From: Pseudomonadota bacterium
GTDB taxonomy: Bacteria; Pseudomonadota; Gammaproteobacteria; Steroidobacterales; Steroidobacteraceae
NCBI GenBank assembly: GCA_021807675.1
Contig: JAKBCR010000001.1
Span: 1-64,000 of the forward strand
Direction of reading: 5' to 3'
DNA: 64,000 nt
Position 1 is the first letter of the stretch; each line of letters starts with the position of its first letter. This document shows positions 43,328 through 57,574 of the stretch, piece by piece. The notes under the pieces were generated by a model. The model ran no database searches, was not told the DNA's origin, and was given only the letters and a program-made list of their open reading frames with translations. A program made the translations under genes and the position numbers.

Positions 43328-44518
43328 TCAGGCGGGATTTTTCAATTTCGCGGCGACCCGGCGATAGGCTTCGCGGAACGGGATGCCTTCGTTGACTACG
43401 AGCCGGTTGGCTTCCTCGGCGGCGTGAATGGCAGGGTCCAGGCGGATACGCTCGGGGCGAAAGCGCATCGCATCGAGGGCGGAGGGCAGGATATCGAGCG
43501 TCTGTTGCGCCAGGTCGATGCCGCGGAACAGAGGGGCTTTCAGCAGCTGCAGGTCGCGCTGATAGCCTGAGGGCAGCTTGGCGCAGAGGCCGAGCGCTTC
43601 CGCGAGACAGGCCTGCGCCGTGGCGGAGCGGCCGCGGATCAGCTCGAAGACATCCGGGTTGCGCTTCTGCGGCATGATCGAGGAGCCGGTGGTGAACGCG
43701 TCCGGCAGCTCGAGAAAGCCGAGCTCCTGGGTGTAAAAAAGCAGCACGTCGGCGGCGAGGCGGCCGAGATCCTGCATGAGGAGCGCGCTCTCGAAGAGCA
43801 GAGTCGCCTCCGCCTTCCCGCGCGAGAGCTGCACGGCGGTCACCGGCTCGTGGACTTCGGCGAAGCCGAGCTTCCGTCGCGTCGACTCGCGGTCCAAGGC
43901 CAAGCCGGGCGTACCGTATCCCGCTGCCGACCCCAGCGGAGATTTTCCGACTCGGCGTTGGACCTGCCTCAGACCCTCCGCGTCGTCCCGGATCTCGGCC
44001 GCGAAGCCGCCTGCCCATAACGGTACGGAGCTCGGCATCGCCTGTTGCATGTGGGTATAGCCCGGAAGCGCCGTGCTCTTCTCGCGCTCGGCCAGGCGCT
44101 CGAGCGCTTGCGCAACCCGAAGGGCGCCGCCGCTCAACTCGTCCGCTGCATCCCGCAAATACAGCCGCAGTGCTGTCAGCACCTGGTCGTTGCGTGACCG
44201 TCCCAGGTGCACGCGGCCCCCGGCAGCTCCGATGCGCTCCGTCAGCCGACGCTCGAGCGCTGTCTGACCGTCCTCGTCGGCCAGCTCGATCCGCCAAAGG
44301 CCACGAGCGTGCTCGTCACCCACTGCGGTCAGGCCGTTGCGGATCGTCTCGAGGTCGGCCTCCGAGAGAAGGTCCTGCTCGTGCAGCATCTGCGCATGCG
44401 CGATGGATGCGCGCACGTCATAGGCCACCAGGCGCTCATCGAGCGCAAAATCCTCGCCGGCGGTGTATCGCAACACGCGCTCGTCGAGAGGCGCCCCTTT
44501 GTCCCACAAACGTGTCAT
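43328..44518 (-). CDS. argH: Argininosuccinate lyase
   Basis: ArgH cleaves argininosuccinate to arginine and fumarate, the final step. The fumarase-superfamily signature is GSSIMPQKRNPD; other motifs are GRSRNDQVLTALRLYLRD and the catalytic-His region PGYTHMQQAMP. Length is 396 aa, shorter than the roughly 460 of the usual enzyme but typical of the short xanthomonad/Bacteroidetes type. It is the last gene of the arginine operon, 17 bases after argB. Confidence 0.96.
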   Translation of the reverse strand: MTRLWDKGAPLDERVLRYTAGEDFALDERLVAYDVRASIAHAQMLHEQDLLSEADLETIRNGLTAVGDEHARGLWRIELADEDGQTALERRLTERIGAAGGRVHLGRSRNDQVLTALRLYLRDAADELSGGALRVAQALERLAEREKSTALPGYTHMQQAMPSSVPLWAGGFAAEIRDDAEGLRQVQRRVGKSPLGSAAGYGTPGLALDRESTRRKLGFAEVHEPVTAVQLSRGKAEATLLFESALLMQDLGRLAADVLLFYTQELGFLELPDAFTTGSSIMPQKRNPDVFELIRGRSATAQACLAEALGLCAKLPSGYQRDLQLLKAPLFRGIDLAQQTLDILPSALDAMRFRPERIRLDPAIHAAEEANRLVVNEGIPFREAYRRVAAKLKNPA

Positions 44519-44535: not shown

Positions 44536-45474
44536 TCAGCTCTGCGCCCCCTGCTGCTCGGCAGGGCTCAGCGCGTTGATGTCCGCCACGATCAGCGTTC
44601 CCGTCCCCTCGTTGGTGAAAACCTCGCCGAGAATGCCCTCGGGCGCTTGATATGACACCACGTGGACGCGACGCACCCCGCCGCGGATCGCGTCTTCGAT
44701 GGCCTTCGCTTTCGGCAGCATGCCATCGACGATGCGCCCGTCCTCCCGCAGGCGCTTCAATCCCTGCAGGTCGAGGTAGGAAATGAGCGACCCTGGGTCG
44801 GAAACCTCGCCGAGAATCCCCGGCGCGCCCGTACAGAGGATCAGCTTTTCCGCGCCGAGCGCCGCGCCGAGCGCCGCGGCCACCGTATCGGCGTTGATGT
44901 TGAGGAGCACGCCAGTGTCATCCGCCGAGAGTGGGCTCACCACCGGCATCAATCCGTTGTCGAGGAGCTTGCGCACCGCCGTCGGGTCCACGGCGTCAAT
45001 GTCGCCGACGAAGCCGTAGTCCACCATCTCGCCACTCGAGCGGATCTTCACCGGAGGCCGCTTGTGCGCGCGCACCAGGCCCGCATCGACACCGCTGATC
45101 CCCACCGCCTCGATGTTGAGGTCGCGGCAGATGCCGAGAATACGGGTGTTGATGAGGCCATTCAGCACCATCGCGGACACGTCGATCGACTTCTGGTCGG
45201 TGACGCGTCGGCCCTCCACCATGCGTGTCGGGACGCCGAGCGCGGTGGAGAGCTCCGTGACCTGCGGGCCGCCGCCATGCACGAACACCACCCGAACTCC
45301 GAAGTAGTGCAGGATCGCGATCTGCTCGATGAGGACCCGGGTGGAGTCGAGGTCGGCGAACACACCGCCGCCCGCCTTCACGACGAAGGTCTTGCCCTTG
45401 TACATGCGGATGTAGGGCGCGGCGCTCTTGAGCGCCCGGATCGCCAGGGCCTGATCGCCAGGATGCATGATCAT
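44536..45474 (-). CDS. argB: Acetylglutamate (N-acylglutamate) kinase
   Basis: It phosphorylates the gamma-carboxylate of N-acylglutamate. Glycine-rich motifs are VVKAGGGVFAD and VFVHGGGPQVTE; VVSPLSADDTGVLLNINADTVAAALGAAL and IVDGMLPKAKAIEDAI are family blocks. Length is 312 aa and there is no fused GNAT domain, unlike the bifunctional ArgB/NAGS of Xanthomonas. The donor of the acyl group must therefore come from another gene. It lies between argF' and argH. Confidence 0.95.
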   Translation of the reverse strand: MIMHPGDQALAIRALKSAAPYIRMYKGKTFVVKAGGGVFADLDSTRVLIEQIAILHYFGVRVVFVHGGGPQVTELSTALGVPTRMVEGRRVTDQKSIDVSAMVLNGLINTRILGICRDLNIEAVGISGVDAGLVRAHKRPPVKIRSSGEMVDYGFVGDIDAVDPTAVRKLLDNGLMPVVSPLSADDTGVLLNINADTVAAALGAALGAEKLILCTGAPGILGEVSDPGSLISYLDLQGLKRLREDGRIVDGMLPKAKAIEDAIRGGVRRVHVVSYQAPEGILGEVFTNEGTGTLIVADINALSPAEQQGAQS

Positions 45475-45487
45475 CTCGATGTGTCCC

Positions 45488-46489
45488 TCAAATGCTCTTC
45501 AACATGCGATGGAGGACCGCCATCTGTACGGTGAGGCGGTTGTAGGCTTCGCGCTGCACGACGCTGCGCGGGCTGTCGAGCACTTCATCCGCGACCGCCA
45601 CGTTGCGGCGTACGGGAAGGCAGTGCATCAGGCGGCAGTCCGCGGCCGTCTGCGCGAACCAGTCGTTGCGCACGCACCAGTGCTTCAGCTCGCTGCGCAG
45701 CCGCCCATCGGCGGCCGCATCGCCATAACAGGATGTGGCGCCCCACTCCTTCGCATAAACGACGTGCGCACCGGCGAGCGCCTCGTTCCGGTCGGCGGTC
45801 TCCCGCACGGAGCCGCCCGATTGAGCCGCGGCGCGGCGCGCCTTGTCCATGATCGGCGGCGGCAAGGCGAAGCCCTCAGGCCGCAGCACGATGACTTCCA
45901 TGCCACGCAGCGCCGCCATGTGGACGGCGCTGGCCGGCACTGCGAGCGGCAGCGCGCGCGGATGGTTTACCCAGGAGAGAACGAAGCGGCCGCTTCGGGG
46001 GACCTCGAGCTCGTCCAAGGTCTTCCAGTCCGCCAGCGCCTGGCACGGATGGCTGGTCGCCGACTCCAGGTTGATGAGCGGCTTGTCGACGAGACTCGCC
46101 ATTGCGTTGAAGCCGGTTTCGGCGAGATCCGCGGCGAGGTCCTTGCCGTCCGCGAAGGCCCGCAGCCCGAGGGCATCGCAGTAGGAAGCCAGCACCGGGA
46201 TCCCTTCACGCACATGCTCGGCTGCCGCGCCGCTCATCACGGCGCCGCGCCGCGTCTCGAACTGCCAGGTGCCCTGCCCCGGGGTGATGACGAAGGAGCT
46301 GCCGCCGAGCCGCGCCATGCCTGCCTGGAACGAGGCGAGCGTGCGCAGCGAGGGGTTGAGGAAGAGGAGCCCGAGGATCTTGCCCGCCAGGGCCTGCGGC
46401 TCCGGACGTGTCTCGAGGCGGCGCGCCAGCTCGAGCAGCGCCAACACCTCCTCACGCTCGAGGTCCGCGAGGTCGAGGAAGCGCTTCAT
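45488..46489 (-). CDS. argF': N-acylornithine carbamoyltransferase (AOTCase/SOTCase family)
   Basis: It transfers a carbamoyl group to N-acylornithine, not free ornithine. Family markers: FLNPSLRTLASF (carbamoyl-phosphate loop, SLRTL where most relatives have SxRTR), SHPCQALADW, VNHPRALPLAVPASA and MHCLPVRRNVAVADEVLDSP. In the loop xMxGxxxEH, which determines acyl specificity, Xanthomonas acetylornithine enzymes have Glu and the Bacteroides succinylornithine enzyme has Pro before EH; here it is Ala (MSGAAAEH). Length is 333 aa. Its start overlaps the argD stop by ATGA. Acyl specificity is therefore unsettled. Confidence 0.9.
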   Translation of the reverse strand: MKRFLDLADLEREEVLALLELARRLETRPEPQALAGKILGLLFLNPSLRTLASFQAGMARLGGSSFVITPGQGTWQFETRRGAVMSGAAAEHVREGIPVLASYCDALGLRAFADGKDLAADLAETGFNAMASLVDKPLINLESATSHPCQALADWKTLDELEVPRSGRFVLSWVNHPRALPLAVPASAVHMAALRGMEVIVLRPEGFALPPPIMDKARRAAAQSGGSVRETADRNEALAGAHVVYAKEWGATSCYGDAAADGRLRSELKHWCVRNDWFAQTAADCRLMHCLPVRRNVAVADEVLDSPRSVVQREAYNRLTVQMAVLHRMLKSI

Positions 46490-47721
46490 GTCGGCAGGCT
46501 CGCGAGCGCATCACGGAGCATGTCGACGTGCTCCTCCCGCAGGATGAAGGGCGGCAGCAGCCTCACGATGTGGCCGTCGCTCGCCGTGCCCGCCAGAATG
46601 CCGCTCTCCAGCAGCTCCGACTGGATCTGCCTGGCCGGTCGGCTGGTGCGCAGGCCGAGGAGAAAACCCTCGCCCTGGCTCGAGCCCACCGGGCCCACGA
46701 TGCAGGTGCGGCGAATGTAATCCGATACGCGCCGCACGTTCTCGAGCAGCGCCTCCGACTCGATGGCGTCGATCACCGCCTCGATGGCCGCGCAGGCCAT
46801 GGGGCCGCCGCCGTAGGTCGTGCCGAGAAGCCCCACACCCAGAGTCGCCGACACCTTGGCGCTGGTGAGGAGCGCCGCGCAGGGAAAGCCGTTCCCGAGC
46901 GCCTTGGCTACGGTAAGCATGTCGGGCATGACGCCGTACAGGTTGGCGGCGAACGGATGGCCGACACGGCCGAGACCGCACTGCACCTCGTCGAAGATGA
47001 GCTGCGCACCGACCTCGTCGCAGCGGCGGCGCAGTGCCTCGAGGTAGGGTCTGCCCAGATCGACGGCGCCCGCAAGCCCCTGTACGGGCTCGACGATGAC
47101 CGCGGCCGTGCGATCGGTGATGTGAGCGGCAATGGCGCCGATATCACCGCGCGGCAAGAAGCTCACATCGAAGGGCTTGCGCGGGAAGCCATACCAGGTA
47201 TCCGAGCCCCAGGTGACCGCCCCCGCCGCCGCCGTGCGGCCGTGGAAGGCGCCCTCGACCGCGGCGACATGCGGCCGGGAAGTCATGCGAAACGCCAGCC
47301 GCAATGCGTTCTCGTTCGCCTCCGCGCCGCTGCTGACGAAGAAGACGCTCGTGAAATCCAGCTTCGAGAAGCGCACCAGGCGCTCCGCCGCGCGCGCGCG
47401 GATGCGCATCGGAACGGCGTTCGTCTGGAAGTTGCACACGCGGGCCTGGGCGGTGAGCGCTTCCGTCCAGCCGCGATGGCCATAGCCGAGCGATGCGACC
47501 GCATGCCCGCCGTAGAGATCGAGCACCCGCTCGCCCCGGGTGTTGAAGAGCCAGACGCCCTCGGCGGAGGCCACCTCGAAAGGATATTGAGCGTATACCG
47601 GTGCGAGGAAGTCTCGCGCGCTTCCCGGGGTACGTGCACCTGCGCCGGCGGGTCTCGGCGAGTGTGGGGATGGTATCGGTGGGTCTGACGGGCTGGTTGT
47701 CGCACAGGGTGTGGTTGTCAT
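46486..47721 (-). CDS. argD: Acetylornithine (N-acylornithine) aminotransferase
   Basis: A PLP aminotransferase of the class III fold acting at the N-acylornithine step. The PLP lysine is in DMLTVAKALGNGFPC; other family blocks are DLYGGHAVASLGYGH, SGAEANENALRLA, EGAFHGRTAAAG and LIFDEVQCGLGR. The N-terminus is an unusual Pro/Ser-rich segment of about 40 residues before DFLAPVYAQYPFEV. Length is 411 aa. It sits between argC and argF', overlapping the latter. Confidence 0.94.
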   Translation of the reverse strand: MTTTPCATTSPSDPPIPSPHSPRPAGAGARTPGSARDFLAPVYAQYPFEVASAEGVWLFNTRGERVLDLYGGHAVASLGYGHRGWTEALTAQARVCNFQTNAVPMRIRARAAERLVRFSKLDFTSVFFVSSGAEANENALRLAFRMTSRPHVAAVEGAFHGRTAAAGAVTWGSDTWYGFPRKPFDVSFLPRGDIGAIAAHITDRTAAVIVEPVQGLAGAVDLGRPYLEALRRRCDEVGAQLIFDEVQCGLGRVGHPFAANLYGVMPDMLTVAKALGNGFPCAALLTSAKVSATLGVGLLGTTYGGGPMACAAIEAVIDAIESEALLENVRRVSDYIRRTCIVGPVGSSQGEGFLLGLRTSRPARQIQSELLESGILAGTASDGHIVRLLPPFILREEHVDMLRDALASLPT

Positions 47722-47731
47722 GTCGATCGCC

Positions 47732-48793
47732 TCAAGTCCAACCGGGCGCGCACGCGGTGAGACCCTCCGTCTCCGGCAGCCCGAAAATCCGGTTCATCCA
47801 TTGCACCGCGCCGCCGGCCGCGCCCTTGTTGAGGTTGTCGATCACGCACATCACGGCCACCGTGCGGCCGCTCGAGGCGGCGCAGAGGTGCGCGTAATTC
47901 GTGGTCACGACCTCCTTGACTCTCGGCGCGGAGTCCGTCACCCGCACGAAGGGCGATCCGGCATAGAACTCGCGCAGCGCCGCGAGCACCTTCGAGGTGT
48001 CCACCGCTGATTTCAAGGGCGCCTGTACCGTGACGTGAATACCGCGGGCGAACGGCCCGGAGTGCGGCACGAAAGCGAACTCCGCTTCCACACCCGTCGC
48101 GGCACGCGCGCAGGCCGCAACTTCCGGCGCGTGTCGATGCGCCAGCGCGTTGTAGGAATAGAGATCGCTGTGGCGCAGCGGATGATGAGTGCCTTCGACG
48201 GGCTTGCGGCCCGCGCCGGTGCTGCCGGTGATGCCCGTCACGTAAAGGACGGGCGGCGTGAGCCCCAGGGAAAGGAGCGGCATGCTCGCGAGCAGTGTCG
48301 CCGTGGCGAAGCAGCCTGGATGCGCGACATGCGGGGTCTTAAGCTCCCGCAGGTGCTCCGGCACGGCGCAGGTAAACTCCGCCAGGCGCGCCGGAGCAGC
48401 GTGCGCGTGCCGGTAGACCGACTCGTACTCCGCCGCGGAGCGGAAGCGGAAGTCGGCGGAGATATCGACCACCCGGAGCCTGGTTCCGGCTTGCGAAGCG
48501 GCCTTCAACAGGGAGTCGATCAGCGCGGCGGAGACACCGTGCGGCGCCGCGGAGAAGACGGCGCATTCCGGTACGCGGGTCACGAGCGCCTCCACGTCCG
48601 CCTGAGACTTGAAGCGCGTCTCGCCGTAGGCGGCTGCAAGATGAGGGAACGCCTTGGCGACCGGCTCCCCCGGCTGGCTGTCGGACATCACCGCCGCCAG
48701 CTCGAATCGCGGATGCGCTGCGAGCAGGCGCAGCAGCTCACCGGCGACATAGCCCGTGCCCCCCAGCACCACTGTCGGGACAAAACCGCTCAT
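47732..48793 (-). CDS. argC: N-acetyl(acyl)-gamma-glutamyl-phosphate reductase
   Basis: It reduces N-acylglutamyl-phosphate to the semialdehyde with NADPH. The Rossmann motif is VLGGTGYVAGELLRLLAAHP and the catalytic cysteine is in HVAHPGCFATATLL. ITGSTGAGRKP and the C-terminal GAAGGAVQWMN are family features. Length is 353 aa. Its ATG overlaps the DUF1611 stop by four bases (ATGA), so translation of the two is coupled. Confidence 0.95.
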   Translation of the reverse strand: MSGFVPTVVLGGTGYVAGELLRLLAAHPRFELAAVMSDSQPGEPVAKAFPHLAAAYGETRFKSQADVEALVTRVPECAVFSAAPHGVSAALIDSLLKAASQAGTRLRVVDISADFRFRSAAEYESVYRHAHAAPARLAEFTCAVPEHLRELKTPHVAHPGCFATATLLASMPLLSLGLTPPVLYVTGITGSTGAGRKPVEGTHHPLRHSDLYSYNALAHRHAPEVAACARAATGVEAEFAFVPHSGPFARGIHVTVQAPLKSAVDTSKVLAALREFYAGSPFVRVTDSAPRVKEVVTTNYAHLCAASSGRTVAVMCVIDNLNKGAAGGAVQWMNRIFGLPETEGLTACAPGWT

Positions 48794-49854
48794 GCAGCGG
48801 ATTCCCGGACGAGGCCGATGGCTTCCATGACGCGATCGCCGAGGGCCGCGCCCGCACTCATCGCATTGAAAGCCGGCACGCCCATCTGCGAGGCGATGAT
48901 CTCGACTCCCACCTGATTGTCAGTGGCCGGACCGGTGACCACGCAGGGCTCGATCCCGAACCGCTCCCGCAGCAGCTTCACCCCGCCCCAGGCCGCGACG
49001 GGATCGTTGGCCGAGAGGACGACGCCGGTGAGCGCGGCGCGGATATCCGCACACTCCAGAATCGCATCGACACCGTAAGTGCCGAGAATACCGTCGCCGA
49101 GCTCGAATACGATCGCATCGGGCTTGCCGGCGGCGAGCTCCGTCAGCATGGTGCGGGTGAGCGCAGGCCCGTTTATGCGGGTGGTGGTGACGACTCCCAG
49201 GTCGGTGAAGATGAGAGAGCGGCGCGCACCCGCATCCTCCATCGCCAGAATGTCGCGGCGCAATGACACGCCGGTCGCCTTGAAGGCGTCGATCATGCGA
49301 CCGCGGTGGCGCATCCGGCTGATGATGGCGCACGCGGCAGCGGTCTTGCCCGCCTCCATGCAGGTTCCCGCGAGCGCCACAACGGGCACCTGGCGGGACT
49401 CGAGCTTCGCCGCGAGATCGAGGCGGCGGAGTCCGGCGCGCGCCGGCACGCCGATGCGCTCGCCGAGATAGGGAAAATGCAGCGCCACGCCGAGCACCCG
49501 ACAGTCGAACGGCTTGCCCTTGTCGGGATTGATCGAGTCGCAGACCCCGAGCACACCGCCGATGTTGAGCATCTGGATGATGTCGCCCGCCTGTAGCGAG
49601 GGTGGCACGTGTCCCGAGTAGCCGAAGAGCGCCTTGCGGTGGCCGAGAGCGCCCACCACGATATCGCCCTTGCCCACCTTGGCCATGCGCCCGCTGGTGA
49701 GCTCCAGGGTGTTGTAGTTCGACTTGTTGGTCAGCACCTCGACGACGACCACGACGCCCTCATCGGAGGGGATGTCGGTCGAGATCCGCACCTCGTGCGA
49801 CAGGCCGCAGGCCTGCGCCACGGAAGCGATCTTATCGACGACGACGCTTCTCAT
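48790..49854 (-). CDS. DUF1611 P-loop protein inside the arginine operon; candidate N-acylglutamate synthase
   Basis: A 354-residue DUF1611 protein. The N-terminal half is VVEVLTNKSNYNTLELTSG and GDIVVGALGHRKALFGYSG; the C-terminal half holds a P-loop VALAGTCMEAGKTAAACAI (about residues 159-177) and TDLGVVTTTRINGPALT, ELGDGILGTYGV. From memory, one DUF1611 branch (DgcN) has been reported as a D-glutamate N-acyltransferase. Here it lies 13 bases after argG and overlaps argC by ATGA, so it is an integral operon member. No ArgA, ArgJ or GNAT is in the window. Start ATG 49854 follows AGGTGGTGAG. The function is inferred, not shown. Confidence 0.85.
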   Translation of the reverse strand: MRSVVVDKIASVAQACGLSHEVRISTDIPSDEGVVVVVEVLTNKSNYNTLELTSGRMAKVGKGDIVVGALGHRKALFGYSGHVPPSLQAGDIIQMLNIGGVLGVCDSINPDKGKPFDCRVLGVALHFPYLGERIGVPARAGLRRLDLAAKLESRQVPVVALAGTCMEAGKTAAACAIISRMRHRGRMIDAFKATGVSLRRDILAMEDAGARRSLIFTDLGVVTTTRINGPALTRTMLTELAAGKPDAIVFELGDGILGTYGVDAILECADIRAALTGVVLSANDPVAAWGGVKLLRERFGIEPCVVTGPATDNQVGVEIIASQMGVPAFNAMSAGAALGDRVMEAIGLVRESAA

Positions 49855-49867
49855 GCCGCTCACCACC

Positions 49868-51106
49868 TCAGGCATCCGTTTTGACGCGCTCGCCGGCGCG
49901 CCGGTGAAAGACGCCCGTGAGGGCGACGATCTTGGAGAAGCCGAGCGCATCGATGGGAGTCCACTCGCCCGCCGCCTCGCCGTACACGCCCTTGGAGGCG
50001 GCCATGAGCGAGTAGGGAGACTCGATGCCCTCGACGAAGAGGTTGCCGGGACGAAGCTGAACGTGGACCTGACCGGTCACCCGCTCCTGAGAGGAGAGGA
50101 GCAGCGCCTCGATATCGCGGCAGACGGGGTCCAGGAGCTGGCCCTCGTGCACGAGATCGCCGTAAGGTTGCGCGACCGTCTCCTTGATGCGCTGCTGGCG
50201 GCCTGTCAGCACGAGCTTCTCGAGCTCCCGGTGCGCGGTAAGCAGCACCTCCGCGGCAGGCGCCTCGAACGCAACGCGTCCCTTGGTGCCGATGATGGTG
50301 TCGCCGAGATGGATGCCGCGCCCGATGCCGAACGGCGCGGCGAGGGCCTCCAGCGCCTCGATGAGCGCGACGGGCGAGAGCACCCGGCCGTCGAGTCCCA
50401 CAGGGCGGCCCTGCCTGAACTCGATGACATGAGACTCGGCGGCCCGCGGGCGGCTGAACGCATCGCGCGTCAGCACCCATGCATGATCGGGGATGCTGCC
50501 GGAGGACGTCAGCGTCTCCTTGCCCCCGATCGTGACACCCCAGAGGCCGCGGTTGACCGAATAGGCCGCTCCGAAGGGCGGGACCGGCAGCCCGCGCGAC
50601 TCAAGGTAATCGAGCTCTTCCTGGCGCTTGAACGCGCGGTCGCGGACCGGCGCCAGCACCTCGAGCTCCGGCGCCAGCGTGCGCATCGCCACCTCGAAGC
50701 GCACCTGATCGTTGCCCGCCGCGGTGCAGCCGTGGGCGATCATGTTGGTGCCGAGCTTGCGCGCCATGTGTGCGATGGTCTGCGCCTGCATGACGCGCTC
50801 CGCGCCGACGCAGAGCGGATACATCTGGCCGCGCTTGACGTTGCCCATGACGAGGAACCGCAGCACCTGCTCGAAGTAATCCGCGCGCGCGTCGATCTGG
50901 TGGTGCTGCACGGCACCGAGCGTGCGTGCGCGCTCCGCCAGCGTGCGTGCCGCGGCTTCATCGATTCCGCCGGTGTCGACCGTCACGGTGATGATGGGCC
51001 GGCCGTAGTTCTCCTTCAGCCAGGGCACGAGAAAGGAGGTATCGAGACCGCCGGAATAGGCGAGAACGATGGGCTGGTCGCCCTTCAGGGGGACGGTATT
51101 GGGCAT
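49868..51106 (-). CDS. argG: Argininosuccinate synthase
   Basis: It joins citrulline and aspartate using ATP. The PP-loop motif VLAYSGGLDTSFLVPWL is at the N-terminus; AHGCTAAGNDQVRFEVA and GIGRGIHLGDTIIGTKGRVAFEAPAA are further synthetase blocks. The sequence is of the xanthomonad/Bacteroidetes-like branch rather than the enterobacterial one. Length is 412 aa. It is the second gene of the operon, 3 bases after argR. Confidence 0.96.
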   Translation of the reverse strand: MPNTVPLKGDQPIVLAYSGGLDTSFLVPWLKENYGRPIITVTVDTGGIDEAAARTLAERARTLGAVQHHQIDARADYFEQVLRFLVMGNVKRGQMYPLCVGAERVMQAQTIAHMARKLGTNMIAHGCTAAGNDQVRFEVAMRTLAPELEVLAPVRDRAFKRQEELDYLESRGLPVPPFGAAYSVNRGLWGVTIGGKETLTSSGSIPDHAWVLTRDAFSRPRAAESHVIEFRQGRPVGLDGRVLSPVALIEALEALAAPFGIGRGIHLGDTIIGTKGRVAFEAPAAEVLLTAHRELEKLVLTGRQQRIKETVAQPYGDLVHEGQLLDPVCRDIEALLLSSQERVTGQVHVQLRPGNLFVEGIESPYSLMAASKGVYGEAAGEWTPIDALGFSKIVALTGVFHRRAGERVKTDA

Positions 51107-51109
51107 GAT

Positions 51110-51556
51110 TCAGACTCGAAAGATGGCCTGCAGGCGGGCGATGAGGTCGTCCTGCGCGCGGGCGTTGGCGGTTGCGATGAAGATGGTGTCGTCGCCGGAG
51201 AGGGTGCCGGCGACCTCGGGCCACTCCGCCCGGTCGATGGCCACGGCGACGCTCTGCGCCGCGCCGATGGTGGTTCTGAGCACAGTGAGCGAGGGCCCGG
51301 CTCGCCTGAGCCCGCGCACGAACTGCGCGAGCATGGCGAAATCGCCGTTGGTCCGCGAGACCTCGTCGGGAGGCAGCACGTAGCCGCCGCTCGCCTTGAG
51401 GACGCCGAGATCGCGCAGATCGCGGCTGACGGACGACTGCGTCACCTCGTAGCCCTCGGTCTTGAGCAGGCGCGCCAGGTCTTCCTGCCGGCGAACGTGT
51501 CCGCCGCGCAGGATGCGCATGATCGCTTGGCGGCGCTCGAGCTGCTGGGCGTCCAT
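51110..51556 (-). CDS. argR: Arginine repressor
   Basis: An arginine-sensing hexameric regulator. The N-terminal winged helix has RRQEDLARLLKTEGYEVTQSSVSRDLRDLG; the C-terminal arginine-binding domain has GPSLTVLRTTIGAAQSVAVAID and GDDTIFIATAN. Length is 148 aa. It is the first gene of the arginine operon, with ARG-box-like sequences immediately upstream, so autoregulation of the whole cluster is likely. Confidence 0.95.
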   Translation of the reverse strand: MDAQQLERRQAIMRILRGGHVRRQEDLARLLKTEGYEVTQSSVSRDLRDLGVLKASGGYVLPPDEVSRTNGDFAMLAQFVRGLRRAGPSLTVLRTTIGAAQSVAVAIDRAEWPEVAGTLSGDDTIFIATANARAQDDLIARLQAIFRV

Positions 51557-51579: not shown

Positions 51580-51618
51580 TGATGCATAAAATTGCGTCAA
51601 TTATGAATATTAATGCGC
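51580..51618. promoter_or_regulatory. Tandem ARG-box-like operators upstream of argR
   Basis: Two AT-rich 18-base elements with a 3-base spacer, TGATGCATAAAATTGCGT and TTATGAATATTAATGCGC, resemble the ArgR consensus wNTGAATwwwwATTCANw (the second better than the first). They stand out in this GC-rich DNA and lie 24-62 bases upstream of the argR ATG. Confidence 0.65.
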
Positions 51619-51659
51619 AGGTGTCAAGGGCAGATCGGGTCGAGGGGCTCTTCGCCTGC

Positions 51660-54600
51660 CTATTTCTCCACGCTGAACACCAAGTCCGCTCCCCTGACCT
51701 GCCCGGCCTCGGTGCGGATCGTCCAGTGATCGCCCAGGCTGTAGCGCAGGCGGATAGCGTTCAACTGCTGCGTGAGGCCGACGCCGTAGCTCACGTACAG
51801 GCGCGGTGACAGGTATTTCCCGAGAACGAGCGAGGTCTCGTTGTTGAGATCGGTCTGCAGGCTGATGTCGGGCAGGCCGATGCGTGAGCCGAGCTCCTGG
51901 GCGAGGATGGCGCCGCCCTGGGTCAGGAGCTCGTTGGCGGCGGTCGCCTGCTGGCTCTGCGGCGTGTTCGCCGCCTGCATCATCTGCAGCGAGCCGCCGC
52001 CACCGCCGCCGGAGAGGATCAGGGAGACGATCTGCGACTGCGGCAGGGAGGGATCGGAGAAGAAGGACATCTGCGGCTGTTGCAGGGTGCCGCGCACGTT
52101 GATGCCGGCGGTGACGTCGGGGTAGCGCTTGATGGCGCGGATCTCGATGCCGGGATTCTCGATCGGGCCGCCGGTGAAAATGAGGCGCCCGCGCTGGATC
52201 TCGAGCTGGCGAGCGTAGGCCGCGTACTTGCCCTTCTCGACCGAGAGCTCCCCCGTGGCGCGGGTGATCGCGTCATAGCCGCTGCGCACCGTGATGCTGC
52301 CCACGAGCTGACCGGTCAGGCCCATGGTATCGATGTTGACGTCGGGCCCCAGGGTCATCGTGATCTGAGTCTTCACCTTGAAGCGATTGGCCGGGCTCTG
52401 CGACTCCTGGCCGACGATGACCTCGTCGGAGGAGGAGGTCACCGCCCCGGTGAGATTGGTCGGGACGATCCTGGCGTGCGGAACGGCAACCGTGCCCGTG
52501 ATATCGATCTCATGGGCGGCCACCTTGAAATCGAGGTTGGGAGAGGCATCGATCTGCGCTTCCGGAATGTCCACCACGCGGAGGTTGGAGCCATCGATGT
52601 GCAGCTGACCATAGGGCAGTGCACCACGCCAGTGAAGCGTGCCCACGGCATGCACCGATCCCCGGCCCGCCTGCGCGGTGCCGTTGAATATCAGGCCGTC
52701 GTCCGTCAGGCGCGCGGTCAAGCCGATCTGCCGCAAGCGCAAGTTGGTCCGGTACGCATCGACCTGCCCGTTGGAGATGCCGATCGTGCCGCTGAGCTGT
52801 GGTGTGCCCACTGTGCCCGCGATCCGTGCATCCGCCGTCAAGTCTCCGGCGGCACGGTCGATATTGGGCGCGTACACGGAAATGAGGTCGAGCTTGGAGG
52901 TCTGGGCCCGTAACTCGCCCCGGACCGGCATGTCCTGCCAATGTCGCGCCCCCCGCTCGATCTTGAGAGTCCCCGCCAACGTGCCGATCTCTCCCGAAGT
53001 CAAAGACGCTTCGGCATCGACCGCACTCGGCGTGGCGACCGCCGTGAGTACGCCCGACCCGATGGAAGTGCGCTCGACCCGTCCGCTCTCGAGTCGCCGC
53101 GACAGCACGGCGTGGCTCAGCGCGATGCGCAGCACCCCCTGCGCCGGGCTGCTCCCGCCGCCGAAGAGCCGTGCGCCGACGTTGACGCTGCCCAGGTATT
53201 CGACGGCCGGCGTGCGTCCCGCGGTCAGTGTGGCCAGAGGTAACTCGCTGGCGGTCAGTGTCGTAGACCAGGTCGCGGGCGTCCAGCTTCCCTGCGCGCA
53301 CAGATCGCCCGGTGTGCCGACCAGGCAGAACCGCTCGATGCTGCTCGCAGCGGGCGACAGCTCCAGGGCGACCGGCTGCTGCAGATGCAACCGCAGCGAC
53401 TCCTCGCCTGACAGGCTGAGCGACTCCAGCGTGCCGTCGAAGTTACTCTTGTTGAAAGCGCCACGGGCCGTCGCGGTCAGATGCAGACCGGGCGCCTGTG
53501 CGTCGAGATGAGCGGTTGCCCCCGACGCCGGCCCGTCGAGCGTGAAGTCCAGGCTCCGCAACGTGCGGCGATGAAACCGGAGCTCTCGGAGGCGCGCCTC
53601 GATTGACGAGCGCCGCCGCGAGCTCGGGTCGAAATCCACCTTGGCATCGAAGCGCGCCAATGACACTCCATCGTAGAGGATGCCGGCTCCGTGAGCGGTG
53701 GCGAGAATGTCGGGACTGTCGAGCGGTCCGCGGATCGTGCCGCTCGCTTGCAAGCGGCCGCGGGTGCCCGGCGAGAGGAGGCTCAGGTCTTCGGCGGTCA
53801 CCGCGAATGTCAGGTCCACCGCGTGATCGATCCGTCCATCGAGCGCCAGGCGGGTGCGGCCGAGGCCCACACGAACGCGCTGGAAGGTCCACGTGTTCCC
53901 TGCATGCGTGAGCTTGCCGCCGCCGCTCGCTGTGACGCCCCGCAGCCGGCCGTCGAGGCCGTCGACGGCCAGGCTGATCGGATCGCCGGCCTTGAAGCCG
54001 CGGCCCGCCATCGTCAGCCCGAAGTCGAGACTGCCGGGCAGGTCGGGCCGCCACCGGCCCGGGTCGATGCCCGTCGCCCGTCCGCTGACGGTCCAACGCT
54101 GCACGGGCGCCCAGGTCACTTCGGCCTGCAGTACGGCATGGCCGTGCAGCAGATCGACGCTTCCTCGGCTGATGCTGACGCCGTCGCCCGCCAACCTGCC
54201 CGCGGCATCCGCAGGCACTGCGGGGTATCCGTCAAGCTGCACCAGCCCCTTCGTGCGGAAATCGTACGGGCGCACGCCTGAGAGCTCGAAGGTTCCCTCG
54301 GCGCTGCGAAACGGCACCTTCGGTCCCACGAGCGGCCAGCGGAGGTTGCGCCAGCTGCCTCGCAGATCGAGACGCGGTCCGCCCGCGACGATCCCGATCG
54401 TGCCGGAGGCCGTCGTGTTCGCGCCCGAGCCCGGATGGGTGATGTCGATCCGCCGTGCGGTGATGACGTGCTGGGAATAGGCCCCGTCGAACCGCACCTT
54501 GAATGGACCTGCCTTCAGTCCGGCCGGGTCCAGCATGCCACGCGCGCTGAATCCGCGCCCGGCGCCGCTCAGTGCGAGCTCGCCGCTGATGGCGCCCAGC

Positions 54601-55415
54601 GGGCCGGCGAGATGCCAGGCGCGCAGGTCGAAGTCCTGCACCACGGCATGGCCCCGCCAATGCCAGTCGTGAGTCAGATCGAGCATCTCTCCGCTGAGCT
54701 CGCTCTGGAAAGGTGCGAGGATCTTGCCGCTGACCGCCACCTTGTCGAGATCGCCGGCAGCGCTGGCGGTGAGCCGCCAGTCCGGCTGGTCGCGTGGCCG
54801 CCAGGTGATCCGTCCTTGCGCCGTAAGCTGCAGCGGATCGCTGGCATGGAGCGTACCCGTGGCGGCGAAATGCAGTTCGCCCATTTGCAACTGTGTCTGA
54901 TAGAAACGGATGTCTCGATGGCGCAGCAGCGCGGAGCCCGCGATCGCGCTGCCCTCCAGTCGGGTGCGGTCCGGGTCCACCAACACCGCCTTCCCGATGC
55001 TGGCATGTCCGATCTCGATGGTCAGCCAGCGTGGCAGGAATTGAGGCGCTCGGGCGGGCACCGGTGGGGGGCTCGCCGGGTGCTTGACCTCGATATAGAC
55101 GCTGTCGACGGTTGTATCGGGCGCGCGAAGGGTTTGCCAGAGGAGCGGCTCGAGCAGCACTCGAGTGCAGATGCCACGGATCTCGAGGTGCACCCGCTCC
55201 TGGTCTATCTCCACCAGGCCTGCGCGGACGCCGCCCGCGATCGTTCCGCTGACATCCTCGATCCGGATCCCGACGTGACCGAACCGATGCGGCAGGTGGC
55301 TCACCACGAACCGCAGACCGCTCTGGGTGAAGAGGACGGAGTAGAGTGCGGCGCAGGGCAGCGCGATCGCGATCAGAACGAAGAGGGCGGTGGCGAGCAG
55401 CAGGAATCGGCGCAT
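51660..55415 (-). CDS. tamB: Translocation and assembly module subunit TamB
   Basis: A giant inner-membrane-anchored periplasmic protein that bridges to the outer membrane with TamA and moves lipids or outer-membrane proteins. A single N-terminal transmembrane helix (LLLATALFVLIAIALPCAALYSVLF) precedes about 1000 residues of beta-rich AsmA-like repeat (GRITWRPRDQ, GTLKIERG patterns). The C-terminal DUF490/TamB domain has GINVRGTLQQPQMSFFSDPSLPQSQIVSLIL and ends LRYSLGDHWTIRTEAG. Length is 1251 aa. tamA precedes it by 15 bases in one operon. Confidence 0.95.
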   Translation of the reverse strand: MRRFLLLATALFVLIAIALPCAALYSVLFTQSGLRFVVSHLPHRFGHVGIRIEDVSGTIAGGVRAGLVEIDQERVHLEIRGICTRVLLEPLLWQTLRAPDTTVDSVYIEVKHPASPPPVPARAPQFLPRWLTIEIGHASIGKAVLVDPDRTRLEGSAIAGSALLRHRDIRFYQTQLQMGELHFAATGTLHASDPLQLTAQGRITWRPRDQPDWRLTASAAGDLDKVAVSGKILAPFQSELSGEMLDLTHDWHWRGHAVVQDFDLRAWHLAGPLGAISGELALSGAGRGFSARGMLDPAGLKAGPFKVRFDGAYSQHVITARRIDITHPGSGANTTASGTIGIVAGGPRLDLRGSWRNLRWPLVGPKVPFRSAEGTFELSGVRPYDFRTKGLVQLDGYPAVPADAAGRLAGDGVSISRGSVDLLHGHAVLQAEVTWAPVQRWTVSGRATGIDPGRWRPDLPGSLDFGLTMAGRGFKAGDPISLAVDGLDGRLRGVTASGGGKLTHAGNTWTFQRVRVGLGRTRLALDGRIDHAVDLTFAVTAEDLSLLSPGTRGRLQASGTIRGPLDSPDILATAHGAGILYDGVSLARFDAKVDFDPSSRRRSSIEARLRELRFHRRTLRSLDFTLDGPASGATAHLDAQAPGLHLTATARGAFNKSNFDGTLESLSLSGEESLRLHLQQPVALELSPAASSIERFCLVGTPGDLCAQGSWTPATWSTTLTASELPLATLTAGRTPAVEYLGSVNVGARLFGGGSSPAQGVLRIALSHAVLSRRLESGRVERTSIGSGVLTAVATPSAVDAEASLTSGEIGTLAGTLKIERGARHWQDMPVRGELRAQTSKLDLISVYAPNIDRAAGDLTADARIAGTVGTPQLSGTIGISNGQVDAYRTNLRLRQIGLTARLTDDGLIFNGTAQAGRGSVHAVGTLHWRGALPYGQLHIDGSNLRVVDIPEAQIDASPNLDFKVAAHEIDITGTVAVPHARIVPTNLTGAVTSSSDEVIVGQESQSPANRFKVKTQITMTLGPDVNIDTMGLTGQLVGSITVRSGYDAITRATGELSVEKGKYAAYARQLEIQRGRLIFTGGPIENPGIEIRAIKRYPDVTAGINVRGTLQQPQMSFFSDPSLPQSQIVSLILSGGGGGGSLQMMQAANTPQSQQATAANELLTQGGAILAQELGSRIGLPDISLQTDLNNETSLVLGKYLSPRLYVSYGVGLTQQLNAIRLRYSLGDHWTIRTEAGQVRGADLVFSVEK

Positions 55416-55430
55416 CGCGCTACCGTGCTC

Positions 55431-57341
55431 TCAGAGCTTCGGAGAGAAGTTGATGTAGAGGCGCGGGCTGCCGGACTGCGAGAGGGGCTGCCCGATGTCG
55501 ATGCCGAGCGTCAGGACGGGCAACCGGACACGAAATCCGAGGCCGGCGCCGTACTGAAGCGGGGTGCCGAAGTGATTGAAGGCATTGCCGTAGTCGAAGA
55601 AGGCGGCCACCCCGAAGTCTCTCGGCAGGTCGCGGTCGAACTCCACCGACCCGGTGATCAGGTCCTTGCCGCCGGCTTTGGCCGCGACGCACTCCTGCCG
55701 GGCGCTGGCGCCCGAGCCCACGGTCTCGCAGAAGTTCTGAGTGGGTGAGAGGTCGTTGTAGGCGAAGCCGCGCACGCTGCCCTCGCCGCCCGCGAAGAAC
55801 CTCATCACGGACGGCATCTCGTCGAAATGCGAGGCGAAGGTGACCCCGAGCTCGTCGCGAAGGAGCAGGTGCCACTTGGGCGCGAGCGTGAACACCCGCT
55901 CGAGCTGCACGTGGATCTGCAGGAAGCTCGCCTTCGATCCGAACGCGCCCTGCGAGCCGCGGATCTCGGCGTAGATCCCGTGCTCGAACATCGGCTCGCC
56001 GAGATAGCCCTTCGGTACGGAGGCGATATCGACCCCTGGCACCAGCAGGTCGTCGGTCGCCGTGCCTGCCGTTATGCTCGGAATCGGCTGTCCGGCTGAC
56101 GTCGTGCACTGCGTGTAGGTCGTGGTCCCGCTCGTCGTCCCTACAGGGCACTCCGGGGTGCCCTGCACCGTCCCGGTGGAGTGTACGCCATTGATGAACC
56201 ACACCGTCTGCCAGCGACCCGTCACGCGGGTCACGCTCGGGCCGAAGGACATGGTGCGCGCGTCGACGTCCGCGAGCTGACGCTGCTCGACGGTGCCGGC
56301 CAGAGTCAGATTCTCGACCGCCGGATCGCCGATCGGAATGATGTAGCGGCTCTGCAGGCTATACTTGGTTACCTGCGCGGCCTCGATGTCGATACTCATC
56401 TTGTGGCCGTAGGAATTGACCCTCCGGTCCTGCCAGCTGATGATGCCGCGGGCGCCGGTATCGGTGGCATAGCCCCCGGCGAAGGAGTAAACGTTCGGCC
56501 GGTTCGGATCGGCGCGGATGCTGACCGGGACGGTGTGATGAACGTGGTCGGGCGTTCCCGTCAGCACTTCGAGGTTGGTGAAGTACTCCGTGTCGTCGAG
56601 CGCGAACTGCGTGCGCAGGACCTCCGTCAGGTCGAACGGGGCGCCCGGCCGGTAGCGCAGGAATCTGCGCACCAGCTTTTCATTCACCGCATTCTGCTTG
56701 ATGGTAGTGGCCCCGAAGCGGTAGCGCACGCCCGTTTGAAGCTCCAGCGCGATGCTGGCCGTATGCGCGCTCGGGTTGACCAGCAGCTCGTGACGGGTCA
56801 GCGTCGCATCGAGGAATCCGTAGGTGGCGGCGGTCCGCAGCAGGTCGCTCTTGACTCTCTCGTACTTCGCCTGGTCGAGCTGCTCGCCGGTATGAAACGG
56901 CAGGTTGGAGGTGATGCGCATGAAGAGCGGGCTGGCGGCGCCCGGTCCCACGACGCGGACGTCCACCTTCGTCAGGATCACCGGCTGACCGGGGTCGATC
57001 GCGATCGTGACCTGCCAGTTGCCCGAGCCGGTGGATGTCACGCTCGAGCGCACGTTGGGCTCGAAGTACCCGAACGGGCGCAGGGCCGCTCGCACTTCCC
57101 GGCTGACGCGGTTTTGCAGTCTGTCGACGGTATCGGGGGTCAGGTGCTTGCTGCGCTGGTAGCGGGCGAAGCTGAGGTATGCGAGCACATTCTTGCGCAG
57201 CGGATCGCTCACGCCTTTGATCGTGATGGTGACGCCGGCCCGCGCCAGCGGCGCGGCGAGGACCCAGACGAGGAGCAATGCGAGGACGCCCGAGGCGCGC
57301 CATTGCGGCCGAGCCCCGTGTAACGAGATTCGCTGCCCCAT
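55431..57341 (-). CDS. tamA: Outer membrane assembly protein TamA (BamA/Omp85 family)
   Basis: An Omp85-type 16-stranded barrel preceded by POTRA domains. Signal peptide about residues 10-36 (VLALLLVWVLAAPLARA), POTRA region ITIKGVSDPLRKNVLAYL, EPNVRSSVTSTGSGNWQV and GATTIKQNAVNEKLVRRFL, then barrel with FFAGGEGSVRGFAYNDLSPTQ (the Omp85 GSxRGF-like motif) and a C-terminal PRLYINFSPKL. One predicted external loop is long and Thr/Gly-rich with a cysteine pair (TPECPVGTTSGTTTYTQC). Start ATG 57341 is chosen; track 57434 adds residues from a repeat-flanking region. Length is 636 aa. Confidence 0.94.
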   Translation of the reverse strand: MGQRISLHGARPQWRASGVLALLLVWVLAAPLARAGVTITIKGVSDPLRKNVLAYLSFARYQRSKHLTPDTVDRLQNRVSREVRAALRPFGYFEPNVRSSVTSTGSGNWQVTIAIDPGQPVILTKVDVRVVGPGAASPLFMRITSNLPFHTGEQLDQAKYERVKSDLLRTAATYGFLDATLTRHELLVNPSAHTASIALELQTGVRYRFGATTIKQNAVNEKLVRRFLRYRPGAPFDLTEVLRTQFALDDTEYFTNLEVLTGTPDHVHHTVPVSIRADPNRPNVYSFAGGYATDTGARGIISWQDRRVNSYGHKMSIDIEAAQVTKYSLQSRYIIPIGDPAVENLTLAGTVEQRQLADVDARTMSFGPSVTRVTGRWQTVWFINGVHSTGTVQGTPECPVGTTSGTTTYTQCTTSAGQPIPSITAGTATDDLLVPGVDIASVPKGYLGEPMFEHGIYAEIRGSQGAFGSKASFLQIHVQLERVFTLAPKWHLLLRDELGVTFASHFDEMPSVMRFFAGGEGSVRGFAYNDLSPTQNFCETVGSGASARQECVAAKAGGKDLITGSVEFDRDLPRDFGVAAFFDYGNAFNHFGTPLQYGAGLGFRVRLPVLTLGIDIGQPLSQSGSPRLYINFSPKL

Positions 57342-57417
57342 CGATGCGTACGACCCAAGCCCCGGCTGGCGGATGAAAGGCGGATTGTAGACGTGACCCT
57401 CGCACAGGGCGCGGGTT

Positions 57418-57574
57418 CCGTTGCCCAAAAGCAAGTGAGCCAGCGGCCGTTTCCCGAGGCCCGTCGTTTCGCATTGGCGGGTCTCGGAGAGGCCGCTCCC
57501 TGGGCCGCGCGATCAAAAGCGGTAAATGGGCTGGCCGCGTAATGCGGCAGGATGCCGGCTTTGCGCCGGTAGAC
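57418..57574 (-). repeat. Interspersed repeat family C, copy 5 (inverted)
   Basis: Read on the minus strand it runs GGCGCAAAGCCGGCATCCTGCCGC, then GATCGCGCGGCCCAGGGAGCGGCC, then CTCGGGAAACGGCCGCTGG to TTGCTTTTGGGCAACGG, parallel to the copy at 35920-36070. It ends at the NRDE gene stop codon. Confidence 0.8.

Follow-up and report, generated by a model that had tools for sequence, protein, structure and literature searches.

A P-loop protein of the arginine operon as a candidate N-succinyl-L-glutamate synthase in Steroidobacteraceae

The arginine operon found on the minus strand of the window, the whole 64,000-nt stretch of contig JAKBCR010000001.1 analyzed here (GCA_021807675.1, Steroidobacteraceae), contains a single gene without a characterized function, called X in what follows. 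Judged from its sequence and genomic setting, X is probably a new N-acyl-L-glutamate synthase belonging neither to the GNAT nor to the ArgJ enzymes, with N-succinyl-L-glutamate synthase as the most likely predicted activity. A wider proposal, to which we give equal chances of being right or wrong, takes X as the founding member of a new family of N-succinyl-L-glutamate synthases that is built on a SIMIBI P-loop fold and has no relation to the GNAT or ArgJ enzymes. Its members would catalyze the entry step of a succinylated route to arginine throughout the Steroidobacteraceae and, here and there, in other Pseudomonadota, and DapE would work in the synthesis of both arginine and lysine.

The gene order is argR-argG-X-argC-argD-argF'-argB-argH, all on the minus strand, and the identities of the neighbors of X were confirmed by Pfam and NCBIfam profile searches. 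The arginine repressor gene argR (51110-51556) matches PF02863 and PF01316 over cut-off; argG, for argininosuccinate synthase (49868-51106; TIGR00032, 297 bits, cut-off 268), ends 13 bp before the start of X (48790-49854), which in turn overlaps by ATGA with argC, for N-acyl-gamma-glutamyl-phosphate reductase (47732-48793, its ATG at 48793-48791; TIGR01850, 290 bits, cut-off 234). Downstream are argD, for N-acylornithine aminotransferase (46486-47721; PF00202, and TIGR00707 at 299 bits, under the cut-off of 410), argF', for a carbamoyltransferase of the knotted type predicted from its diagnostic residues to act on N-succinyl-L-ornithine (45488-46489; NF003384, 348 bits, cut-off 288), argB, for N-acylglutamate kinase (44536-45474; TIGR00761, 209 bits), and argH, for argininosuccinate lyase (43328-44518; TIGR00838, 305 bits). 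Neither ArgB, whose kinase domain covers residues 28-274 of 312, nor ArgH carries a fused GNAT domain. The first-pass annotation had described a tight minus-strand operon with an ATGA overlap, an ArgB free of the fused GNAT and no known synthase gene; reading frames, overlap and profile matches agree with this description, only the kinase domain is found in ArgB, and X is the sole uncharacterized gene of the operon.

Just one site of the window resembles an ARG box at three mismatches or fewer, where 0.13 would be expected: a palindrome at 51602-51619, which precedes argR by 46 bp. In 71 relatives a similar palindrome precedes argR by about 60 bp; in 51 of these it has no more than three mismatches, and shuffled sequence yields almost none. 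The genes from argR to argH look like one arginine-regulated operon, which ArgR would control via the box upstream of argR. The region upstream of the operon (51660-57434) is occupied by two large minus-strand genes (1251 and 667 aa) that resemble TamB and TamA by eye.

X lies between arginine genes in 80 of the 80 relatives fetched, an arrangement that is thus not due to chance, and the order argR-argG-X-argC recurs in nearly all of those whose contig is long enough. The full order from argR to argH is found in genome G285, where X is 67% identical; G158 and G236 (X 45% and 42% identical) have argD-argF'-argB-argH-argG-X-argC, G352 (44%) has argG-X-argC, and X is also part of the arg cluster of G028, a complete single-contig genome. 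At loci L051 and L059 the operon showed no argD in the interval from argC to argF', and an aminotransferase encoded elsewhere may serve. Mean identity within the operons amounts to 84.3% for X, 83.2% for argG, 80.5% for argB, 80.1% for argH, 78.4% for argF', 75.2% for argR, 72.7% for argC and 71.9% for argD; no product is better conserved than X, a ranking that fits an enzyme better than an accessory factor.

The N-acylglutamate synthase that the first-pass annotation had reported missing from the operon is not supplied by either classical gene elsewhere. In the genome under study (G000, 97.3% complete), the ArgA model TIGR01890 matched the kinase domain of ArgB only, with no match to its GNAT part, ArgJ was absent in a PF01960 search, and neither a second kinase match nor an extended ArgB pointed to a fused synthase-kinase. 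In a family sample of 120 genomes, of which 83 form a high-quality subset (completeness of 90% or more, contamination of 5% or less), X occurs in 117 of 120 and in all 83 of the subset. ArgA over the TIGR01890 cut-off occurs in none of the 120, and the high-quality subset is devoid of ArgJ; the only trace of ArgJ in the whole sample is a 98-aa fragment from a genome that is 75% complete. ArgA scores over cut-off in 187 of 274 Gammaproteobacteria sampled. It is absent, as is ArgJ, from all six genomes with the arg-operon form of X (G000, G015, G285, G158, G236, G352) and present in 12 of 12 Gammaproteobacteria whose X-like proteins are all distant (identity, where measured, about 28-33%), counts that come from related genomes and do not represent independent events. 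The X-bearing genome G646, from another class, is also without ArgA. A literature search on arginine synthesis in Steroidobacter returned nothing on point, and no passage settling growth without arginine.

X might conceivably be an accessory or regulatory P-loop protein, such as a nucleotide sensor, a chaperone or a partner of ArgB or ArgC, the true synthase being a small GNAT encoded elsewhere. Some SIMIBI-type P-loop proteins, HypB for example, do act as chaperones or regulators, the known GNAT-type synthases ArgA2 and ArgO are hard to distinguish from other GNATs, and the GNAT part of TIGR01890 gives weak matches in some relatives. However, that part is unmatched in the genome under study and no such gene was seen in the operons, while X is universal, is conserved as much as the operon enzymes or more, and in its arg-operon form is confined to genomes that lack ArgA, which makes an accessory role unlikely.

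The reading frame of X extends from an ATG at 49854 to a TGA at 48792-48790 on the minus strand and encodes 354 residues. A longer alternative from an ATG at 49950 runs into argG; the start at 49854 was chosen because it is where the homologues begin, with MRSVVVDKIASV or similar. The Walker A motif GTCMEAGKT (residues 163-171; 49342-49368, minus strand) consists of residues common across the family, with G163, M166, G169, K170 and T171 common to the arg clade and to two groups of paralogues, linked to M20 peptidase and to ABC-transporter genes. Six residues of the P-loop domain, K170, T171, K192, D201, D218 and E251, hardly vary or do not vary at all in the X family. Along the whole protein, K44, Y47, N48, N97, C105, D312 and N313 are invariant in the arg clade only and are candidates for the recognition of glutamate and of the acyl group. 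AlphaFold models a beta-rich N-terminal part (about residues 1-150) poorly and at low confidence, and a SIMIBI-type C-terminal P-loop domain (about 155-348) largely with confidence, much of it at pLDDT above 85; a second run with 80 sequences raised the mean pLDDT from 70.9 to 71.9 and improved the N-terminal part little, probably because the relatives used were all at least 78% identical.

X has no NCBIfam match, no GNAT match in Pfam or NCBIfam and no match to PF01960; an identity as ArgA, ArgJ or a fused kinase-synthase is discarded for want of any profile match, and the Bacteroidetes ArgA2/Cabys_1732 enzyme is discarded as well, ArgA2 being a GNAT, which X is not. A phmmer search of PDB sequences with X returned nothing, and a profile search of the PDB gave weak P-loop matches only. 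A Walker A of the form GxxxxGK[ST] and a matching fold assign X to the SIMIBI class, to which all of the listed Foldseek matches belong. These neighbors of the P-loop domain are dethiobiotin synthetase (BioD), HypB, SRP GTPases and the DUF1611 structures 2obn and 2g0t; the last two match at E of about 1e-4 and a TM score of 0.40, and BioD, HypB and SRP GTPases score alike.

The label DUF1611, under which X had first been annotated, survives at the level of the superfamily through the shared P-loop but fails at the level of the family. The only Pfam match of X, to DUF1611_C (PF07755), reaches 13.5 bits against a gathering threshold of 25 and covers 44 residues around the P-loop; DUF1611_N (PF17396) has no match at E up to 1 in X or in any of 15 family members. 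Alignment by hhalign of X-containing profiles with 30 canonical DUF1611 proteins of the phylum is centered on the P-loop (probability 2.7-5.8%, E 0.0065-0.017), and hmmsearch in both directions between the X family and canonical DUF1611 proteins gave nothing better than E 0.3. Membership of X in DUF1611/DgcN as a family is rejected, and X belongs, on these comparisons, to an uncharacterized family of its own. DgcN is a D-glutamate N-acetyltransferase that works with acyl-CoA and, to our knowledge, is the only characterized DUF1611 enzyme, using an acetyl group. X resembles DUF1611/DgcN proteins (PF07755, PF17396) in its C-terminal P-loop and in the motif order GT-C-GK ... F-[KR]-ATG ... D-F ... 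E-x-x-G, but differs in its N-terminal half, in the lack of DUF1611_N and in its location in arginine operons.

It had also been suggested to see in a tree whether the arg-operon members form a clade apart from DgcN. The maximum-likelihood tree of the X family unites them in one clade (100/96) apart from the M20-peptidase-linked (100/99) and ABC-transporter-linked (100/99) paralogues, but canonical DUF1611 proteins are too distant to place in it. X aligns over nearly its full length with both groups of paralogues (hhalign 100% and 99.95%, E 4e-40 and 1e-37). The copy in G646, a genome of another class of the phylum (L149:5089-8739, argR-X-argC-argB), is 71% identical and nested in the arg clade, which suggests horizontal transfer. 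The M20-linked paralogues (29-33% identity) lie directly downstream of an M20-family peptidase-like gene (L082:2617-4931; L109:5399-8246; L110:5790-7543; L150:7133-9341), with a further reading frame, flavin-reductase-like by eye, first in the cluster at L082 and L109; two of them, at L082 and L110, pass the PF07755 gathering threshold with 27.7 and 29.5 bits. The M20 gene and the X paralogue may be another pair for the acylation and deacylation of an amino acid. The second paralogue clade lies beside a gene, mostly of about 510-570 aa, that by eye resembles an ABC transporter; esterase-like and porin-like genes sometimes come next (L083:5888-7114; L111:3855-4931; L112:3939-6694; L113:1-2500; L115:2624-4815; L116:466-3245; L151:6118-8753; L152:6295-8968). 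The gammaproteobacterial genomes checked outside the family that carry an ABC-linked paralogue have their own ArgA, and the role of this paralogue thus differs.

The acyl group can be predicted from the carbamoyltransferase. The N-acetylornithine enzyme (AOTCase) of X. campestris has Glu92, Asn185 and Lys302, whereas the succinyl enzymes have A/S/P/V/Q, P and V/I/E at these positions, and Arg178 of the Bacteroides enzyme anchors the succinyl group (PMC4581275); changing residue 92 alone switches the specificity between acetyl and succinyl (PMC7311316). In Xanthomonas numbering, ArgF' of the window reads A92/P185/A302 against E/N/K in the acetyl enzymes. Its Ala90 (46220-46222, minus strand) corresponds to Glu92, where Ala, Ser, Pro or Val favor N-succinylornithine; its Pro181 (45947-45949, minus) corresponds to Asn185, which is Pro in the N-succinylornithine enzymes (SOTCases); and its Ala298 (45596-45598, minus) corresponds to Lys302, which is Val, Ile or Glu in known SOTCases. 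When 72 X-linked ArgF' proteins were aligned to the X. campestris enzyme and numbered after it, position 92 was of the succinyl type throughout (A in 70, P in 1, V in 1), as was position 185 (P in 72 of 72); position 302 was A in 69, E in 2 and V in 1, never Lys, the Ala of the window falling outside the published V/I/E. The diverged operons L105 (P/P/E), L107 (V/P/E) and L108 (A/P/V) bear the succinyl signature at all three positions. ArgF' residue 182, the counterpart in the alignment of Arg178 from Bacteroides and a Lys in AOTCase, is Arg in 69 of 72, and in a PDB search the entries of the E92A, E92P and E92V mutants score best for the ArgF' queries with the corresponding residue. Given these signature residues, the operon is best read as a succinylated pathway, the acyl group being probably succinyl, and an N-acetyl pathway taken for granted is weakened. 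The original proposal that X acylates L-glutamate is supported in part, by the synthase gap and by the place of X in the operon, its acyl group being revised to probably succinyl from the ArgF' residues.

The deacylase complement is consistent with a succinylated pathway. A search for M20 proteins in the genome under study detected no ArgE; it found DapE (558 bits, cut-off 284) and a dipeptidase-like protein (G000; L153:5418-7019, L119:604-2031), DapE being the only deacylase of the ArgE/DapE type, and the complete relative G016 yielded no M20 protein other than DapE. In diaminopimelate synthesis DapE cleaves off succinyl groups, and by simple extension it may have a second role on N-succinylcitrulline. 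It is quite unlikely that X uses acetyl-CoA as an N-acetyl-L-glutamate synthase and that ArgF' acts on N-acetylornithine despite its residues. The evidence from operon and distribution applies equally to such an enzyme, NCBIfam files ArgF' as N-acetylornithine carbamoyltransferase (348 bits over a cut-off of 288), its residue 302 is Ala and not V/I/E, and DgcN uses an acetyl group; against this stand the succinyl-type residues at 92 and 185 in 72 of 72 proteins, the match of the diverged operons at all three positions, and the finding of DapE only, with no deacetylase of the ArgE type.

The activity, acyl donor and DapE role that we infer can be assembled into one pathway. X would protect L-glutamate by succinylating its amino group, with succinyl-CoA as the donor, or succinate if X is an ATP-driven ligase; ArgB, ArgC and ArgD would process the N-succinyl intermediates, and N-succinylornithine would be the substrate that ArgF' carbamoylates. 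The succinyl group would then be taken off N-succinylcitrulline by DapE, an enzyme that lysine/diaminopimelate synthesis also uses, and ArgG and ArgH would complete arginine. The P-loop of X could hold the diphosphate of succinyl-CoA, or it could bind ATP for the ligation of free succinate, as the dethiobiotin synthetase/CobB relatives use ATP for bond formation. We lean towards acyl-CoA chemistry, because DgcN, which has the nearest P-loop domain by Pfam, is an acyl-CoA enzyme; the P-loop fold by itself does not imply acyl transfer. That X blocks glutamate with some other group by ATP-dependent ligation, giving an undescribed protected intermediate, is highly improbable: some of the nearest folds, that of dethiobiotin synthetase among them, belong to ATP-dependent enzymes whose targets are amine or carboxyl groups, but the pocket signature of ArgF' fits succinyl and a new intermediate is unneeded.

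The assignment of X as a synthase puts forward a single candidate for the step that commits glutamate to arginine across a bacterial family, together with a predicted acyl group and deacylase. If it is true, a P-loop protein would stand, unusually, in the role of a GNAT acyltransferase, succinylated arginine synthesis would extend to the Pseudomonadota, and the ArgF' proteins of this group would be misnamed in databases. The literature searched assigns no arginine role to any P-loop protein of the X family.

Among known systems, the succinylated pathway has so far, in the literature consulted, been described mainly in Bacteroidetes, where arginine synthesis runs through succinylated intermediates and is started by the GNAT enzyme ArgA2/BT3761 (PMC7311316, PMC9026213). 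That system is like the one proposed for X in reaction and pathway position, in an arginine operon with a succinyl-type carbamoyltransferase and in the lack of classic ArgA or ArgJ; by comparison with the GNAT ArgA2 of Bacteroidetes, X is a P-loop protein without a GNAT match and comes from a different phylum. The X. campestris pathway (PMC1865377) shares with the X operon a carbamoyltransferase of the knotted type, which implies that carbamoylation precedes deacylation, but employs a bifunctional NAGS-kinase and an N-acetylornithine carbamoyltransferase, whereas the X operon has an ArgB without GNAT and an ArgF' of the succinyl type. Other atypical synthases include ArgO, S-NAGS, C-NAGS and the ArgH-fused form (PMC4490483); C-NAGS of Corynebacterium glutamicum is an earlier case of such a synthase without relation to ArgA or ArgJ, although the pathway of this organism, unlike the X operon, uses acetyl and ArgJ (PMC3827942). 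Dethiobiotin synthetase, MobB, HypB and SRP GTPases have the fold and the Walker A of the C-terminal domain of X, but share 12-20% identity with it and no common N-terminal domain that could be seen, and act in unrelated pathways. The reaction proposed for X is of a known kind, while the protein family and the host range would be new.
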